In this document: positions 5,864-31,182 of the stretch, one piece after another
Layout: every line of letters begins with the position of its first letter
Numbering within the stretch: position 1 is the first letter of the stretch
From: Shinella fusca
GTDB lineage: Bacteria > Pseudomonadota > Alphaproteobacteria > Rhizobiales > Rhizobiaceae
DNA: 64,000 bases
Assembly: GCF_014203155.1 (NCBI RefSeq)
Contig: NZ_JACHIK010000001.1
Coordinates: forward strand, 186,001-250,000
Direction of reading: 5' to 3'
The notes under the pieces: generated by a model
What the model was told of the DNA's origin: nothing
Databases searched by the model: none
Seen by the model: the letters and a program-made list of their open reading frames with translations, nothing else
Made by a program: the position numbers and the translations under genes

Positions 5864-7753
5864 TCACTGAATCGGCATCAGCCCTTGTAGAACGCCGATT
5901 GTCGCCTCTGCCTTCTTCAGGCTGAGCTCCTGAGCGTCGATCTCAATGGACGCTCTGTTCTTTTCTGCCTCGGACTTCGTTTTATCGATGTCCGCGCCTT
6001 CCTTGGCTTCGGCGATTTGCTGTTGCTGCTGGGCAGCTTGCGCCTGTTGCTCAGCCATCTGCTGCGCCTGTTGCTTCAACTTCTCAACGATTGTCGAGGG
6101 AAGCGGCGAGTATTCAAGCATGGTGATAAGCATCTGCGGCGGGATGAGCTTCGCGAATGCAGGGAGAAGCTGCATCATGACAACCCACGCGGCTTCCTTC
6201 TGGTTCGGGCTTGTCGGGGCATCATCAACGATGATGTCGTAATCTTCCGTCGCCTGCCGCATGAGAGGCACATAGCGCGCGCCCTCTTCGCCAACGATCT
6301 TGATAAGCCGGCCGTCAGAAAGATCGTGCTGGATGTAGTAGAGCATCACGGAGCCTTGAAGCTCGCGGTAATACTTCAGGCTATCGAAGAACGGCTGCAG
6401 GATGGTCATGCCGGCCTGCTTGCGGCTCATTTCCAGCGATGCCGCCTGCCCTGCTTCTCGGAGACCTAGCATTTCTACGGAGACGCCGGACGTGTCACGG
6501 ATCGAAGAAATGGCAAACTCTGTCAATTGCTGGAAGCCGACCGGGAACTGAGCCGGGGCTTTCTCCTTGACCTTGTTCGCCGTGATCGCGCCGTCTTCCA
6601 TCCACGTAATAGCCGATGGGTCGGACCACGATTCTTCCGCTTGCCTCTGGTTGGCGAATGCGCCTTTCTCAGCCAGTAACCCGCCCTTGGAGTTGCTGTT
6701 CATGATGTGCATCATCTGACTGAGCCACTTATTAGCCCAGCGCTGCGGGTCCTTCATGGACCGAACGATGCCGTACCACGTGTTCTTGTTGCGGTCGCGC
6801 TTGCCAGTCATGAACTGGAACGAGAATTCATGCGGGCACGGGGCCGGTCCAGTCGCAAGGACGACCTCTCCAAGGAATGCCTGTTTGCGAACCTTGCGAC
6901 GGAGCCGAACGCCTTGCATTTCCATCCCGGCGATTTTCTTCAGCCGCTTGTTGACGGTGGCATATTCTCCCGTCGTAAACTCCGATTGCTGCCCGGTAAG
7001 CGGATCTTCGGCGATATAATAGCTCTCTCGCTCGATCCACTGACACTGCACGAGCGTGACCATGCCATCGGAGGCCTTATCGTCCCCTGCATTTTGCTCC
7101 GGGTCGTATTGAGCGCTCTTCAGGTCATCAGCCGTCGTCCATTGGGCGTCTATTTCCGCCCTGGAATAGCCTGGGAACATGTTGAGCGCTTCAGATATCG
7201 GGATACGTCGGACGCGCCAGACACGTCGAGCGTCTGCAAGATTACGCTGCTTGGCGTCGTAGTCCCAATACATCTCCATCGGGTCTACCCGGCAAATCTC
7301 CGGCGTCCCCTCCTGAGAGGATTCGTAGTCGATGCGGCTTTCCGTGCAGCCGATGCCGCAGACAATGGTATCCCAAAACGCATCGCTCTCATTCGACTCG
7401 GCATGCGCCTTATCGCGGAACCACTCGCCGGCGCCGGTCAAGAGCTCGTTGGGCTTCACGTCGCCCATTTCCCGCGGGATGTAGCGTGTCTCACGACGGT
7501 TGCCGATCTCATTGCCATGGATGCTATCAATGACGGGCTGGATGCGGTTGAAGACGACGACTGGACGCTTCTTCTTTTTCAGCGCCTTCATTTCTTCGTC
7601 CGAAAACTGCCGGCCTGCTACGAATTCGTAATCCTCGCGGGCTTCCTCCCGCCACTCTTCAAGGTGGCTCCTGTCATTGATGAACCATTCCTTGAATTTC
7701 TGCGGGACAGGCGCACCTTTCGCCAGGCCATCGTCATTCAGTACGTCAGCCAT
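5864..7753 (-). CDS. P22-like portal protein
   Basis: A 629-residue protein matching the P22-type portal family in length and opening motifs: a charged N-terminus with a WREEAREDYEFVAGRQFS-type helix, then RPVVVFNRIQPVIDSIHGNE, which is characteristic of this group. The C-terminal 90 residues are Gln-rich coiled coil, like the barrel of P22 gp1. The portal forms the ring through which DNA is packaged and ejected. Its ATG at 7753 overlaps the end of the terminase gene by 16 bases. Confidence 0.88.
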   Translation of the reverse strand: MADVLNDDGLAKGAPVPQKFKEWFINDRSHLEEWREEAREDYEFVAGRQFSDEEMKALKKKKRPVVVFNRIQPVIDSIHGNEIGNRRETRYIPREMGDVKPNELLTGAGEWFRDKAHAESNESDAFWDTIVCGIGCTESRIDYESSQEGTPEICRVDPMEMYWDYDAKQRNLADARRVWRVRRIPISEALNMFPGYSRAEIDAQWTTADDLKSAQYDPEQNAGDDKASDGMVTLVQCQWIERESYYIAEDPLTGQQSEFTTGEYATVNKRLKKIAGMEMQGVRLRRKVRKQAFLGEVVLATGPAPCPHEFSFQFMTGKRDRNKNTWYGIVRSMKDPQRWANKWLSQMMHIMNSNSKGGLLAEKGAFANQRQAEESWSDPSAITWMEDGAITANKVKEKAPAQFPVGFQQLTEFAISSIRDTSGVSVEMLGLREAGQAASLEMSRKQAGMTILQPFFDSLKYYRELQGSVMLYYIQHDLSDGRLIKIVGEEGARYVPLMRQATEDYDIIVDDAPTSPNQKEAAWVVMMQLLPAFAKLIPPQMLITMLEYSPLPSTIVEKLKQQAQQMAEQQAQAAQQQQQIAEAKEGADIDKTKSEAEKNRASIEIDAQELSLKKAEATIGVLQGLMPIQ

Positions 7754-9279
7754 GAATCCTCACCTGTGTCTCGCGATTGGAACTTCTCGCGGTGCCTGTC
7801 GCGCTCGACCTGCTTCAGAGACATATCGTCTTCCCGGAAGCCAGAGGCAGTGAATGTCATGAATGCCTTCGCGCCATGCGAATTGATGTCGTGGCGCGAT
7901 TTGTCTTTCCAGACGCCGCGAAGGTCGTCCCATTCCTTGCGGAACTGCTTGAGCCTCGAAAGACCAGACGAGCATCCCGCCTCATCGAATTGACACCGGC
8001 TGAAGAACGGTCTCGCTTGGTTGATCTGCTGGATTTCGGATGTTGCCCGCTCAACCACCTTCGGGCGGAAATTCAGCTTTGACATCACCGAAAGCGTGCC
8101 GTCAGGAATCCATATCGACTGGCGATCCCCGTCATGCGGCAGATAGTGTTCACCGAACTGGACGGCGCGCTCCTTCTTCCACTCGTTTAGCCAGTCGATG
8201 TAGTGCCCTATCCACTCGCCGGAGTTTTCGTAGTACCCGACAAACCGGTGGAAGCCGCTGATGAACTGATGCAGCCATATGGCGTTCAGGTCGTTCCGCC
8301 CAAGGTCCCAGAACGTATTGACGGGATAACGAACATCAACGGGGAACCCTCCAACACGGCCCTGCTTGTACGCCGCCGCCATTTCAACAGAGAAATACGC
8401 ACCTTCAAGGGCCTGCTCGAATGCCTCTTCAGGCGTCGAGGGGAATTCCCTCTTCATGTCCCCGCCCTGAGTCTGCTCCTTCTTCACATACCAAGCCATC
8501 TGCCAAGCATCGACTTCGACGCCTTGCGTTGCCAGCTTGTCGAAGTATCGCAGATCCTCATCCGTGAAGACGACACCCGATGGGTTCAGCCTGTATTGCG
8601 CGTCCTGATACCACGGGAAGAAATGGAACTTGTAATCCATGTCCGTGAGCGGCGAACCATTGGACGCCTGCTCAATGGCCTTCTGCGTCATGTTGTAGAA
8701 GTCGCCTTCTTGCCCTTCCGCAGTGGATTCGATGACGACAAATTGCCCAGGCGCGACGGCGTTCAACGCGCCTGTGACGATTTCCCGCGCCTTCTCTGGA
8801 TACATGGCGCATATCTTGCCGAACTCGGAGATATGCAGGTATTGCAAAGTGCCCGATCGCATCGACGTGGAAACGCGTATTGACGAGTTATTCGCCAATG
8901 TCAGCGTGTCAGCGCTATCTTGCTTGGTCGCTACGGCGTTCCGAATTCCTTCATCAAGGTTGTCATACGGGAATTTGATCTTGTCCCGGAAGATCACCTT
9001 CGCATCGTCAAGCTTATGAGCGATGACGCCAGCTCTCGTGTTCGGTGTGAAGACCGCAGCGTCCAAGTACACGAGGCAGCAGAACGTCGTAAACCCAAGC
9101 TGGCGCGCCTTCAGGATGATGTTGAGCGAATGAAGCTCATCCATGAACTTCAATTGCGCTGTGTTCGGCTCAAACTTGACCTTTCGCCCTTGCTTGTCTG
9201 TGATCCAGTAGAGGTTGCTCAACCGCCAGCGCGGGTCAAGGAATTGGTCCTCGTTAATCTGAATGGATACGCTTGCCAT
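7738..9279 (-). CDS. Terminase large subunit (packaging ATPase/nuclease)
   Basis: A 513-residue terminase. The Walker A-like motif is KARQLGFTT at residues 58-65, the deviant form common in phage packaging motors; a Walker B-like stretch, LHISEFG, lies near 149-154, and [10 protein letters not shown] follows. The C-terminal half holds the RNase H-type nuclease with an [14 protein letters not shown] first aspartate motif. It cuts concatemeric DNA and pumps it through the portal. It overlaps the small terminase by 26 bases and the portal by 16, as in a packed late operon. Confidence 0.9.
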
Positions 9280-9763
9280 TGTTTGCGATGCGCTCCATCA
9301 ACGCTGAAATGCTGTCAGCCAGCTCTCCGCCATGGTTAAGGTCCTGCTTTTCAGCCAAACCAAGATCGCGAGCGATGATGTTCGCGTTCAAGAGATCAGC
9401 AGCCGCTCCTGCAAACTTCTGCTGGAAGATAACTGCCTCGGCTCGCGTGATGACTTCGAATAAATCGGGGCGAGATTTCCGCCAGTTAATCCATGTGTCA
9501 TGGCCAACGTCGAGGAACATGCACAGACCGGCGATGGTCATGGCGCGCATCTTCGGGAACGTTTCTTTGGTGACGACGCCCTGGAATGCAAAGCCTTTCG
9601 TCTCATACAACGGGTTCTCTTCGACCCACTCGAAATATTCGCAGCAGGCGGACCAGAGGTCTTCTGCCTTCTCGAACTTCGGCTTGGCGCCATGGGAGGA
9701 TCGCGCCTCCCAGAAGCGATTGCCGGGGAGGAAGCGACCGGTTTCCTCGTCTTTGCCGGTCAT
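9254..9763 (-). CDS. Terminase small subunit (P22 gp3-like DNA packaging protein)
   Basis: A 169-residue protein with [17 protein letters not shown] at the N-terminus and a helical core ([19 protein letters not shown]), which resembles the gp3-type DNA-packaging family. It recognises the packaging start site and recruits the large subunit. It precedes the large terminase in the usual order. A 9-bp perfect inverted repeat lies 28 bases upstream of its start and might act as an operator or packaging signal. Confidence 0.8.
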
Positions 9764-10760: not shown

Positions 10761-10937
10761 TCAGTATCCCCTTGCCGGGTTGTCACAGTAACCGTCGCGG
10801 TCATAGTGGCGAGGGCGGTCAACGGTGACCGTGGCAGCTTTCATCGCCTCGTAGGCCATGGCGTAGCGCGGATCTGACTTCATCCGCTCTTCGTGCTTGA
10901 GAACAATATCCCGGAGCCTATCGCGAAACTCATTCAT
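10761..10937 (-). CDS. Hypothetical phage protein, 58 residues
   Basis: ATG 10937 is preceded by a GGAG-type ribosome-binding site and gives 58 residues, helical and charged at the N-terminus (FRDRLRDIVLKHEERMK). No family is recognised. It is the first gene after the candidate structured RNA; its ribosome-binding site lies directly after the terminator-like hairpin. Confidence 0.55.
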   Translation of the reverse strand: MNEFRDRLRDIVLKHEERMKSDPRYAMAYEAMKAATVTVDRPRHYDRDGYCDNPARGY

Positions 10938-10959
10938 CGCTCTCTCCGTGAATCGGAAA

Positions 10960-10985
10960 GCCCGCCACCAGTGAAGGCGACGGGC
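10960..10985 (-). terminator. Terminator-like hairpin ending the candidate RNA
   Basis: On the minus strand GCCCGTCGCC and GGTGGCGGGC form a 10-bp stem (two G-U pairs) with a 6-base loop, followed by TTT. This looks like a short intrinsic terminator or a processing stem. It marks the 3' boundary of the non-coding stretch. Confidence 0.6.
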
Positions 10986-11639
10986 GAGGATTGCCGGGCG
11001 ATTCCTACGCGAACTGCCTTAATCCCTTGGGGCTCACTCGCTCGGGAGGCTCTACGCTACCACTCGTCCGGGCTTCGCGTCATTGCGGGCCGCAGTGGCG
11101 GGGCCTCGCGGGCGCGTCTGTTACGGCTATGCCGTATGGGGTCGGGAAGGCGTCGGTTGTTCACGGTCTCTGCCCCTCGCCTGATCCTTCGGGACTTGCC
11201 CGAGATAGCAGGGTCCTAGGAACGCCGGGCCCAGCTTGGTTACGCGCGCTACTGGTCTCTTCTTCCCGATCTCGTTTGCCTTTCGGCGAATATTCGAGGC
11301 TGGGGCTTCCCCACTCCGCGCCGTAGACCGGTATGTTGACCCGTTCCGCGCCTCGCTATCAGGCTTCTGGCCTCCTGTTGGAGCGCCTTACCTGCCGGTT
11401 TCTCTGTATCGCCATCCAAGCCGTTCAACCGGAAACGGGCCAAGGTCGCGGCCGGGGAGTGTACCGGCGCTCGTGAAACTGATTGTCGGGCTACCCTCCC
11501 GGCTTGGCCGCTGTCGACGGTTGCGTATCCGTCACTTCGATGGGCGGGGCGCAGCGGCTTCCCCTGGTATTCGACGCCCTCAGGCGCAAATCGCCACTAT
11601 AGTTTTCATATACCTTATTCGGGTTCCGAGTGGAATCCC
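10960..11639 (-). ncRNA. Candidate large structured prophage RNA (about 680 nt)
   Basis: Between genes ending at 11643 and starting at 10937 there is about 700 bp with no ORF that has a start signal or normal composition on either strand. On the minus strand it holds many tight hairpins: 11621-11639; a nested pair 11508-11513/11552-11557 around 11516-11520/11529-11533; 11451-11468; 11421-11438; 11361-11373; 11301-11313; 11189-11203; 11122-11136; and the terminal stem at 10960-10985. It lies in a prophage late operon near the terminase, a typical setting for ornate large phage RNAs such as GOLLD and ROOL. Membership in either class is not shown. Strand and ends are inferred. Confidence 0.6.
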
Positions 11640-11642
11640 ATA

Positions 11643-12203
11643 TCAAGCAATTTTTCTCAGTTTCCCGCGATTTTCGTATCCGAAGTGAACAGCAAGTGCA
11701 GTGAGCCCCTGCTTCAGCATTTCTACATAAGCGCGCTGGAGGTTCTTGCTCTGAGCCAGGTCGGCAACCGCCCTGCCTTCGCCGGCAACCTTCACCATGA
11801 CGTCGTAACCGATGCCGAGGACTCGCCGGCAGTCGGCGAGGTCAATCCCGGCTTGTATCTGCCGGTCGGACAGCGCCGAACGAGGCCCCCCGCCATCGAC
11901 AGGTTCGCGGCTATAGTCGAACGACCCAGCGCCAGCGCCGCCGAGGGCTTCCCAGATGCGACGGAATCGCTCCCCGGCCTTCACCTGCGCCTCATCGATG
12001 AGCCTGCGCTGCTCCAGCACGACGAGGGCGCTTTCCTTCATGTTCTTCACGCCCATGATTTTCTTCGGGTTCCACGTCTCGCCATCGTGGGCCCGATTGT
12101 AGAGCGGGTTATCAATCTCGCTGAGTTCGGGCTTTGCCTGGCTGTGACCGACTGCCGCCAGATCGATCCCGCCGAGCTTTGCCTTCCGTCCTCGTCTTGC
12201 CAT
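11643..12203 (-). CDS. DUF6456-like phage regulator
   Basis: A 186-residue protein. Residues about 75-115 carry AGERFRRIWE, then a SFDYSREPVDGGG stretch, then LSDRQIQAGIDL and a helical C-terminus ending ALAVHFGY. This resembles the DUF6456 family of alphaproteobacterial proteins, often seen in phage regions where other phages carry late-gene activators or antiterminators. A late-regulator role is inferred from this position, upstream of the packaging and head genes. The basic N-terminus (ARRGRKAK) could contact nucleic acid. Confidence 0.5.
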   Translation of the reverse strand: MARRGRKAKLGGIDLAAVGHSQAKPELSEIDNPLYNRAHDGETWNPKKIMGVKNMKESALVVLEQRRLIDEAQVKAGERFRRIWEALGGAGAGSFDYSREPVDGGGPRSALSDRQIQAGIDLADCRRVLGIGYDVMVKVAGEGRAVADLAQSKNLQRAYVEMLKQGLTALAVHFGYENRGKLRKIA

Positions 12204-13864: not shown

Positions 13865-14203
13865 TCACCCCTCCTTGCCGTTGATGATCGAGACGCGAGG
13901 CATGGAATGGACCTCGCCCGATACGTGGTGGCGCTCGACGGAGCGTATTCCGAAGCTATGGACACGCTTGCGAGGTGGCCGCTGGACCGGCTCGACGGCG
14001 TGCGGCTCCTCCTTGATGGTGATTGCCTGCTCCCTCTCCCACGTCCGCGCCGGGAAAAGATCACGATGCATGCTGGCCGTGCCCGACATGCTTCCCTTGG
14101 TGACGCCAACCATCTCAGCTATTTTCGAAGCAGACACCCCCTGATCCCAAAGCCTGGATGCTTCGTTCAATCTTTCCTCGGTCCATACGATCCGGTTAGC
14201 CAA
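13865..14203 (-). CDS. GcrA-like cell-cycle regulator homologue
   Basis: A 112-residue protein whose first 45 residues match the GcrA N-terminal pattern: WTEERLNEASRLWDQGVSASKIAE, then a helix-turn-helix-like segment with VTKGSMSG. In alphaproteobacteria GcrA binds sigma-70 RNA polymerase and activates promoters carrying methylated GANTC sites. The start is TTG 14203, with GGAGG six bases upstream, overlapping the end of the DnaA-like gene. The C-terminal half is less conserved. Next to a DNA adenine methylase, this suggests methylation-linked transcription control, which is inference. Confidence 0.75.
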   Translation of the reverse strand: MANRIVWTEERLNEASRLWDQGVSASKIAEMVGVTKGSMSGTASMHRDLFPARTWEREQAITIKEEPHAVEPVQRPPRKRVHSFGIRSVERHHVSGEVHSMPRVSIINGKEG

Positions 14204-14717
14204 GACGGGCCTCCATCTTTCGAACTGCGAAAAGGATGGTCGTATGATCGCGGCCGCCGAAAATTGCGCCGAGCTGCGGGAAAGACAGATCGGGCCGCGC
14301 CCTGTGGACGGCCAAGATGCAGGTATGCCGCGCTTCGACTACCGGGACAGACCGGCCCGGCCCCATAACCTGCGCATACGTGATGCCGGGGAAGTCCCGC
14401 AGAACATCGGCGATGATTTCCTTCGTCGGGCGACGGGAACCGGAAACATCGTTGCCGGCGGTCAGGCCGTTGATGGTCTGCTCATGGGCGCGGATGATAC
14501 CATCCTTCTCGTCAAGCCGCTCCTGCAACGATCGTGTTTCGGCCCTGAGCGCGATTACCTGTGCTGACAGGCGGGAGATTTCGTCGTGAAGCTTCTTCCG
14601 CTCCAGCGCGTTGACGAAGTTCCGTCCGCCTCCCATGAGGGCTTCCCGGCGCGCCTTTCCCTCCGCGAGATAGGCCGCAACATCTTCGACGGGCTTTGCT
14701 GAAACTTGAATGTTCAT
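14196..14717 (-). CDS. DnaA domain IV-like DNA-binding protein
   Basis: A 173-residue protein starting at ATG 14717 (ATGA overlap with the upstream gene). Residues 45-90 form a coiled coil. The last 80 residues match the origin-binding domain IV of DnaA, including an EARHTCILAVHRAR-type helix and GGRDHTTILFAV at 154-165, the DnaA signature that contacts DnaA boxes. There is no ATPase domain. It may bind DnaA-box-like sites in the prophage or host origin, either to initiate phage replication or to compete with host DnaA. Confidence 0.75.
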   Translation of the reverse strand: MNIQVSAKPVEDVAAYLAEGKARREALMGGGRNFVNALERKKLHDEISRLSAQVIALRAETRSLQERLDEKDGIIRAHEQTINGLTAGNDVSGSRRPTKEIIADVLRDFPGITYAQVMGPGRSVPVVEARHTCILAVHRARPDLSFPQLGAIFGGRDHTTILFAVRKMEARLG

Positions 14718-15490
14718 CGCTGGAAACTCCTTTCGGAACGCCGCAGCTCGGCGGCAAGGTACTCTTCGCGGGTCAGGATTTTCTTCCCTGGCTTGGGAGG
14801 TTTGTCGGGTGGCTTGGTCTGGACGCGCTTCCACATCCGTTGGCGCAGGTACTTGGCCGCGGCACAGATCACCGTACGGCCCCCACCCTTCGCCTGCTCG
14901 ACATAGGCGCTGGAAAGACGCTTGGCCTCGGCGCGCTCCTCGTCCGACAGATCGCACCATGCACGAAATGCGTCGTCGTGGTCGTCGCTGGCTTGGGACG
15001 GCCATGAAGAAATCCAAGAATCGAAATCCGCGCGCTCGCGCGTTTCTTTTTCAATAGATTCCGAACGAAGTGAGGAATTACTGGTATCTTGGTGTATTGG
15101 TGTCTTTAGTGCGTCCGCGCTGCGTCCTGCTTGCGTCCCGCTTGCGTCTTCTGTGCGTCCAACGTCCTGATAACGTGAATAGTTACAAACAGTTATCTGC
15201 GTCTTTCCTGCGTCCGTTTTCGTCTTGATCATGCGTTCTTTTTCGAGCATCGAAAGGAACGTGCGGACTCGCTTATCGGAGCCCCATCGCCAAGCAGATT
15301 GGAGAGACCGCAACGTGGCGAACATGCTGCCGACCGGAACGTCCAGAACCTCATTGCCGACACGGTGGCGCGTCTCCTTCCAAGCCACATTGGCGATTAG
15401 CCACAGCCACGCCTCGCGCTGGCTAAGCTCCGCCGCCGCGAAAAGCTCGTGGTCGAATATTGAGGTCTGGACGCGGATCCACCTGCTCAT
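14714..15490 (-). CDS. Phage replication initiation protein (winged-helix)
   Basis: A 258-residue protein. The N-terminal region, starting MSRWIRVQTSIFDHELF, is a winged-helix module of the type seen in phage replication initiators: a helix-rich LSQREAWLWLIANVAW followed by SMFATLRSLQSAWRW and a recognition-like helix. The C-terminal half is charged and of low complexity. The start is ATG 15490, overlapping the RusA stop. Its position beside RusA and the DnaA-like gene fits a replication module. No helicase domain is present. Confidence 0.6.
   Translation of the reverse strand: MSRWIRVQTSIFDHELFAAAELSQREAWLWLIANVAWKETRHRVGNEVLDVPVGSMFATLRSLQSAWRWGSDKRVRTFLSMLEKERMIKTKTDAGKTQITVCNYSRYQDVGRTEDASGTQAGRSADALKTPIHQDTSNSSLRSESIEKETRERADFDSWISSWPSQASDDHDDAFRAWCDLSDEERAEAKRLSSAYVEQAKGGGRTVICAAAKYLRQRMWKRVQTKPPDKPPKPGKKILTREEYLAAELRRSERSFQR

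Positions 15491-31106: not shown

Positions 31107-31182
<76 letters not shown>

Follow-up and report, generated by a model that had tools for sequence, protein, structure and literature searches.

Putative small structured RNA modules at the head of a prophage late operon in Shinella fusca

The window analysed here is a stretch of 64,000 nucleotides of the Shinella fusca genome that includes a phage late region with its genes on the minus strand. Within this region, 705 nt (10938-11642) lie between the stop codon of a gene at 11643-12203 and an ATG at 10937 that opens an ORF of 58 amino acids on the same strand. An initial annotation of the DNA had noted here about 680 nt with no credible gene between the genes of a phage late operon, near the terminase, and both the gap and its setting were borne out. 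None of the four listed ORFs that overlap the stretch has a Pfam match at E<=0.1, and a PHROG scan of the same ORFs gave a single match, for the plus-strand ORF 10893-11219, at E 0.073; no conserved ORF emerged from these scans. The genes that frame the stretch are:

5864-7753, minus strand: portal gene, downstream of the stretch
7738-9279, minus strand: gene for the terminase large subunit, downstream of the stretch
9254-9763, minus strand: gene for the terminase small subunit, downstream of the stretch
11643-12203, minus strand: DUF6456-like gene (phrog_21451), a candidate late regulator or anti-terminator, with a promoter-like leader directly after its stop codon

Small genes on the same strand separate the stretch from the terminase genes. 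The upstream genes include one that is DUF4942/methyltransferase-like and, shortly upstream on the minus strand, one that is GcrA-like (13865-14203) and one whose product has a DnaA C-terminal domain (14196-15017).

The product of the gene at 11643-12203 matches phrog_21451 at E 1.2e-48 and scores 19.8 bits against the Pfam DUF6456 model, below the cut-off of 26.3. DUF6456 is also detected at E<=0.01, again below the Pfam cut-off, in 13 of 16 relatives, and a profile-profile comparison of the protein with DUF6456 domains gave a probability of 94.5 (E 7.6e-8, 122 columns). Such matches point to a distant relative of the DUF6456 family and of the gene-transfer-agent regulators GafA and GafZ. The predicted structure of the protein is poor (mean pLDDT 64.9) and has no PDB match at E<=0.001. 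According to one report, GafA homologues carry the DUF6456 annotation and GafA itself has localized similarity to DnaA (PMC9638019); in another, Caulobacter GafZ, which is homologous to GafA, is reported to be an anti-terminator without structural likeness to known anti-terminators (PMC11150451).

No Rfam family matched the stretch, which the initial annotation had thought might belong to an undescribed class. At the gathering scores of Rfam 15, the whole window contains the Rhizobiales sRNA Atu_C8 (RF02502; 55918-56038, minus strand, 118 bits) and tRNA only; for the segment 10900-11750, a search extended to E 10 returned only scr5239, at E 2.6 and on the plus strand, and over 16 other loci tRNAs alone reached the gathering score. 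The covariance models of GOLLD and ROOL, the two giant phage RNAs with which the stretch had been compared, do not match it. BLAST with the whole stretch gave a single phage match, of 29 nt, and matched 7 plasmid records in part. A literature search by titles and abstract openings, with most subscription papers outside its scope, returned no description of the modules reported below.

The nine compact stems that had been taken as a sign of unusual structure did not stand up as such. If only perfect stems with loops of 3-20 nt are counted, the stretch has one of at least 6 bp, against 3.3 +- 1.9 in 200 shuffles, and 7 of at least 5 bp, against 12.1 +- 3.5; the stems are thus no evidence, being neither stronger nor commoner than in shuffled sequence. 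The minus strand of the whole segment folds with a z of +0.50 (15 of 20 shuffles were at least as stable) and the plus strand with a z of +0.07. Parts of the window sequence behave in the same manner: the fold z is +0.47 for module B, +1.20 for part of module X, +1.8 to +1.9 for the interior of frame C and +0.39 for 10990-11116 in stretch Y (all defined below). We dropped single-sequence folding and stem counts as support for the window stretch, given that neither shows an excess over shuffles, and the support for structured RNA comes from comparative data.

With the upstream gene as query, 20 distinct viral loci were obtained. In these and in genome loci, a conserved leader stands right after the stop codon; in many of them varying modules come next, and several also have canonical tRNAs; in others, for example L006, L013, L015, L017 and L019, other sequence follows the leader and none of the modules was seen by eye. 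Compared with viral and genome loci, the window stretch resolves into short blocks of up to 100% identity that are split by unrelated or longer sequence. Relatives back 413 of its 705 nt (59%), and for the remaining ~40% none were found among the loci compared. The elements can be listed as follows, in the order of reading:

11585-11635, minus strand: promoter-like leader, TTCCAC, 17 nt, TATATG, 5 nt, TATAGT, then GGCGATTTGCG where relatives have GGTGATTTGCG
11481-11567, minus strand: module B, pseudoknot-like, with one hairpin that varies and with covariation (model R1, 92.4 bits)
11289-11483, minus strand: module X, with relatives in L022, L023, L037, L141 and L195, in an alignment that overlaps the end of B by 3 nt
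11142-11269, minus strand: frame C, with closing stem TCGGGAAG (11269-11262) and CTTCCCGA (11149-11142)
11122-11136, minus strand: small hairpin TACGGCATAGCCGTA after frame C, conserved in relatives
10986-11121, minus strand: stretch Y, without relatives among the loci compared except copies of the same prophage
10960-10985, minus strand: terminator-like hairpin GCCCGTCGCC-TTCACT-GGTGGCGGGC, then TTT, a ribosome-binding site and the ATG at 10937

The terminator-like hairpin directly before the next ribosome-binding site was described correctly at the outset. It spans 26 nt with ten pairs, two of them G-U, is followed by TTT and then by GGAGAG and the ATG, and has similar counterparts in relatives at the same place before the first late gene; a strict terminator scan does not call it.

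The most extensive evidence for RNA structure comes from module B. In an alignment of 20 sequences that had not been fitted to a model, 22 cells show two-sided changes, compared with 11.7 +- 2.8 in shuffles and 15 for the best slid structure. Two other measures do not stand out in that alignment, since 40 of 500 shuffles equalled the observed count of changed pairs and 136 that of additional pair types. In the alignment fitted to R1, there are 55 such cells against 16.2 +- 3.1 in shuffles and 18 for the best slid version, 14 of 20 pairs in all three modelled helices are changed and none of 500 shuffles reached the observed value on any of five measures; this alignment holds 36 matches in 28 distinct rows, includes duplicates and three weak matches and, being fitted to the model, leans towards it. 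Compensatory changes in excess of those in the controls qualify module B, on comparative grounds, as a structured RNA class. A further 4-bp GGGG/CCCC helix, which would form the pseudoknot, hardly varies and is proposed from the pattern alone, its invariance being due in part to the fact that most loci were picked by that core. The cores are near-invariant across the family. The window copy has two mismatches, C-A in the last helix and G-A at the base of the variable hairpin. The self-cleaving ribozymes twister, pistol and HDV were weighed for B and set aside.

Module B extends well beyond the window. Its exact 19-nt core occurs in 19 stretches of viral contigs, and of 45 pattern matches in genome contigs R1 confirmed 7 at E below 1e-10, in Phyllobacterium phragmitis, Shinella (two), Mesorhizobium liriopis, Rhizobium subbaraonis, Ensifer adhaerens and a record titled Brucella endophytica, now Paramesorhizobium; an eighth R1 match, in Paenibacillus (L150, E 0.008), was taken as chance. 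Shinella, Ensifer, Paramesorhizobium, Phyllobacterium and Mesorhizobium belong to the Hyphomicrobiales, as does Rhizobium. A scan of 297 genomes of the order found matches in at least 4, own genome included, which is a lower bound with at most 14 candidates scored per genome.

For module X, the covariation support is weak: 3 of 44 predicted pairs show two-sided changes in a raw count among six aligned sequences, and one hairpin is replaced by a longer one within the alignment. The compensatory changes that the initial annotation had proposed to look for are strong in B and weak in X. In a Pararhizobium plasmid, module X is found downstream of a tRNA-Met; in an Ensifer plasmid (L195), it runs into the 3' part of a tRNA-Met. 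The frame C pattern, ATCGGGAAG...CTTCCCGA, encloses many unlike interiors in relatives and also catches chance matches. The RNA of the frame folds better than most shuffles in L001, L004 and L030 (z of -1.8, -1.7 and -3.0), and the interior found in the window has no relatives among the loci compared.

Some of these observations would suit a decaying mosaic, in which tRNA and RNA genes exchanged between phages survive as functionless remnants in this prophage. The mosaic pattern across relatives, the mismatches in the window copy of B, the ~40% of the stretch without relatives and the L195 arrangement of module X into tRNA-Met are all in keeping with it. The compensatory changes in 28 distinct rows of module B and the near-invariant cores imply selection at the RNA level in the family, which is not proof for the window copy, and we regard decay as a rather unlikely account.

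Additional modules are found in other phages. The array of the sequenced Rhizobium phage RHph_N3_2 occupies an unannotated gap of 692 nt. It comprises a tRNA-like stretch (no ARAGORN call; a weak tRNA-Sec match of 28 bits), the three modules E, F and N, and parts of frame C, and the final frame C part extends into the ORF annotated next. Its module E (L139:3775-3837) resembles the Y RNA-like YrlA (RF02553) with 34.9 bits and E 8.4e-6, below the YrlA gathering score of 69; other copies of E, in L004 and L087, do not match YrlA, and E is absent from the window. A TROVE/Ro60 match is present in 2 of 41 genomes, with most relatives of the window genome lacking one, and is absent from the window genome itself. 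Module M, GGTGATTTG-N-GGCTGTTCTGATCGCGGACCTC...CTCGCCGGGCC plus a varying hairpin, occurs in L030, L111, L143, L200, L216 and others and is complete in 27 of 36 pattern regions.

Modules vary in kind, number and order among the relatives, with tRNA genes interspersed: Gln and Met in L001, Met in L002, L005 and L008, Asn in L007, Met and Gln in L018 and Gln and Ser in L022. Among 57 distinct module clusters, which include near copies and are not 57 independent cases, 18 have tRNAs within 700 nt and 12 have at least two different non-leader modules. All 22 tRNAs near these clusters are oriented like the modules: 16 are tRNA-Met, 2 are tRNA-Gln and the other four are specific for Ser, Gly, Thr and Ile. 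The contacts can be close, in that module X starts within 3 nt of a tRNA end in L022 and L023 and frame C starts at the base right after a tRNA end in L001. The window stretch has no canonical tRNA gene, the sole tRNA call in the window being tRNA-Lys at 31107-31182. The commonest array tRNA, tRNA-Met(CAT), as in L002:855-931, L005:5823-5899 and L018:6003-6079, often has module B just ahead of it and is presumably an initiator tRNA by sequence likeness. In phage phiLM21 the tRNA-Met (L142:2510-2586) is on the minus strand in the GenBank record and on the plus strand, like those of other arrays, according to ARAGORN. The occurrence of tRNA-Met genes in phiLM21-like prophages has been described in a report whose main text contains none of the words ncRNA, noncoding and non-coding (PMC12429752).

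These comparisons bear directly on the proposal of one large ornate RNA of a new class. Its size, place and setting gave that proposal its appeal, but its parts recur separately, tRNAs stand between them and the whole stretch folds unremarkably, and we consider it very improbable. The idea of a structured minus-strand RNA thus survives in part, as RNA that is non-coding, conserved and at least partly structured. On the sequence evidence, the stretch appears to consist of small structured RNA modules, one after another, that open a phage late operon, and the order of the array would be DUF6456-like gene, promoter-like leader, changing series of RNA modules, hairpin and first late gene.

The leader is conserved in relatives, directly 3' of the upstream gene's stop codon. 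In 25 distinct leaders of relatives, a -35-like hexamer precedes a TATA-like -10, a second element resembling TATAGT stands 11 nt further on and a GGTGATTTGCG-like block comes after it, and a terminator-like hairpin follows within 94 nt downstream in 8 of the 25 (mean 1.34 and maximum 4 in 100 shuffle runs). The window leader shares the second -10-like element; its pause-like block, GGCGATTTGCG, differs by one change, falls outside the pattern of the relatives; the window leader is not among the 25, and the pausing itself is putative. Neither this leader nor anything else in 10900-11700 was listed by strict promoter (sigma-70) and terminator scans. Q-type late promoters, by the example of lambda pR', have a -10-like element at about +1 to +6 and pause polymerase at +16/+17; we take the GGTGATTTGCG-like block to fit the elemental-pause consensus (G-10, T-3 G-2 Y-1 G+1).

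A possible link to anti-termination is offered by RHph_TM3_3_3, in which the gene ahead of module M, at the place of the DUF6456-like gene, is NusG-like (Pfam E 2e-8). In phiLM21, the second gene upstream of the tRNA carries a NusG-like annotation but has no Pfam match at E<=0.01. Module M, standing directly after a NusG-like gene in L143, is a candidate cis-acting anti-termination RNA. The modules in general might work in cis, as an anti-termination leader that binds RNA polymerase or Nus factors or hinders terminators, with the tRNAs as passengers; lambda 6S RNA and tR' and the put sites of HK022 are parallels. The location of the stretch between a regulator gene and the late genes, the conserved leader, the terminator-like hairpins at both ends in relatives and the position of M in RHph_TM3_3_3 would agree with such a role. 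A fixed cis device, however, would not need modules that differ in kind, number and order, and canonical tRNAs are trans-acting; we hold a cis role to be possible, if somewhat unlikely.

The reading we prefer, with a probability of roughly 0.5, is that the stretch belongs to a phage late-operon leader, as the part that carries RNA genes, and that the leader transcript is processed into small stable RNAs acting in trans. A late promoter immediately 3' of the DUF6456-like gene would start transcription, and RNA polymerase might pause near +16 and be rendered processive by phage anti-termination, through a DUF6456/GafZ-like protein here and a NusG-like protein in some relatives. Early in the transcript, the modular small RNAs would stand together as one polycistronic precursor, which includes tRNAs in many relatives and comprises B, X and frame C here; tRNA-processing enzymes and cuts at closing stems would separate them. 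The freed modules would then act in trans as stable phage RNAs, while polymerase that passes the last hairpin would continue into the terminase genes. That the modules mimic tRNAs or serve translation during infection is a guess and the least certain part. The homology of the modules, the covariation in B, the sense-strand tRNAs among the modules of relatives and the operon position are what the comparison shows; transcription, pausing, anti-termination and processing of the stretch are what we infer.

We count in favour of this late-leader model the tRNAs in 18 of 57 clusters, the modules that abut tRNAs, the covariation in B, the leaders of relatives and the links to DUF6456 and NusG-like proteins. 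Against it we count the unremarkable folding, the lack of a tRNA in the stretch, the mismatches in B, the departing window leader and the negative strict scan, together with the DUF6456 score below the Pfam cut-off, the unlikeness of GafZ to known anti-terminators, the poor protein model and the non-independence of the clusters. A bolder version, which we offer as speculation and think improbable, envisages an RNA cassette system in rhizobial phages, with constant-stem frames around fast-changing interiors, placed among tRNAs behind an anti-termination-controlled late promoter, that would supply trans-acting tRNA-mimicking or decoy RNAs, for example against RNA-attacking host defences. The finding of the same interior, P, inside two different frames (L002 and L102) counts towards it.

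Several known systems resemble parts of this arrangement. ROOL and GOLLD have been described as non-coding structured RNAs of phages and prophages that have no known function and are often near tRNA islands (PMC12286853). The likeness lies in non-coding structured phage RNAs near tRNAs, and the stretch may, by analogy, work as they do, as a lytic-phase phage RNA beside tRNAs. ROOL and GOLLD are single large RNAs of hundreds of nt, marked by a conserved overall structure and by assembly into RNA-only nanocages, whereas the modules here are separate, of roughly 60-200 nt and without Rfam model matches; with no covariance-model match and with parts that recur separately in other orders, the stretch does not appear to be a member of either class. 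Species 1 and 2 of the T4 tRNA cluster are likewise small stable RNAs other than tRNAs, have no known function and come from a phage tRNA operon; compared by kind and setting, the present case differs in its several module families and constant-stem frames. The Q-type leaders of the lambda pR'-6S RNA-tR' kind share a regulator gene, a promoter with a second -10-like element, a pause-like block, a terminator-like hairpin (in some relatives) and late genes thereafter, but here a DUF6456-like or NusG-like gene replaces Q, and tRNAs and RNA modules lie in the leader. In Caulobacter GafYZ, a DUF6456-family homologue acts at the promoter of a late gene cluster headed by terminase; the window protein is only distantly DUF6456 and its anti-termination role is putative, and the available text on GafYZ mentions no RNA array (PMC11150451).

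As a set, the RNA modules described here are new; their setting, that of phage structured RNAs beside tRNAs, is known. The function of such RNAs (ROOL, GOLLD and T4 species 1 and 2) is not known, and small covarying modules in the prophages of culturable plant-associated hosts make it experimentally approachable; the sequenced phage RHph_N3_2, with its related modules E, F, N and frame C, likewise opens the question to experiment. The leader further suggests that the late genes of ordinary temperate phages may be run by anti-termination of the GafZ kind, which has been reported for gene transfer agents.
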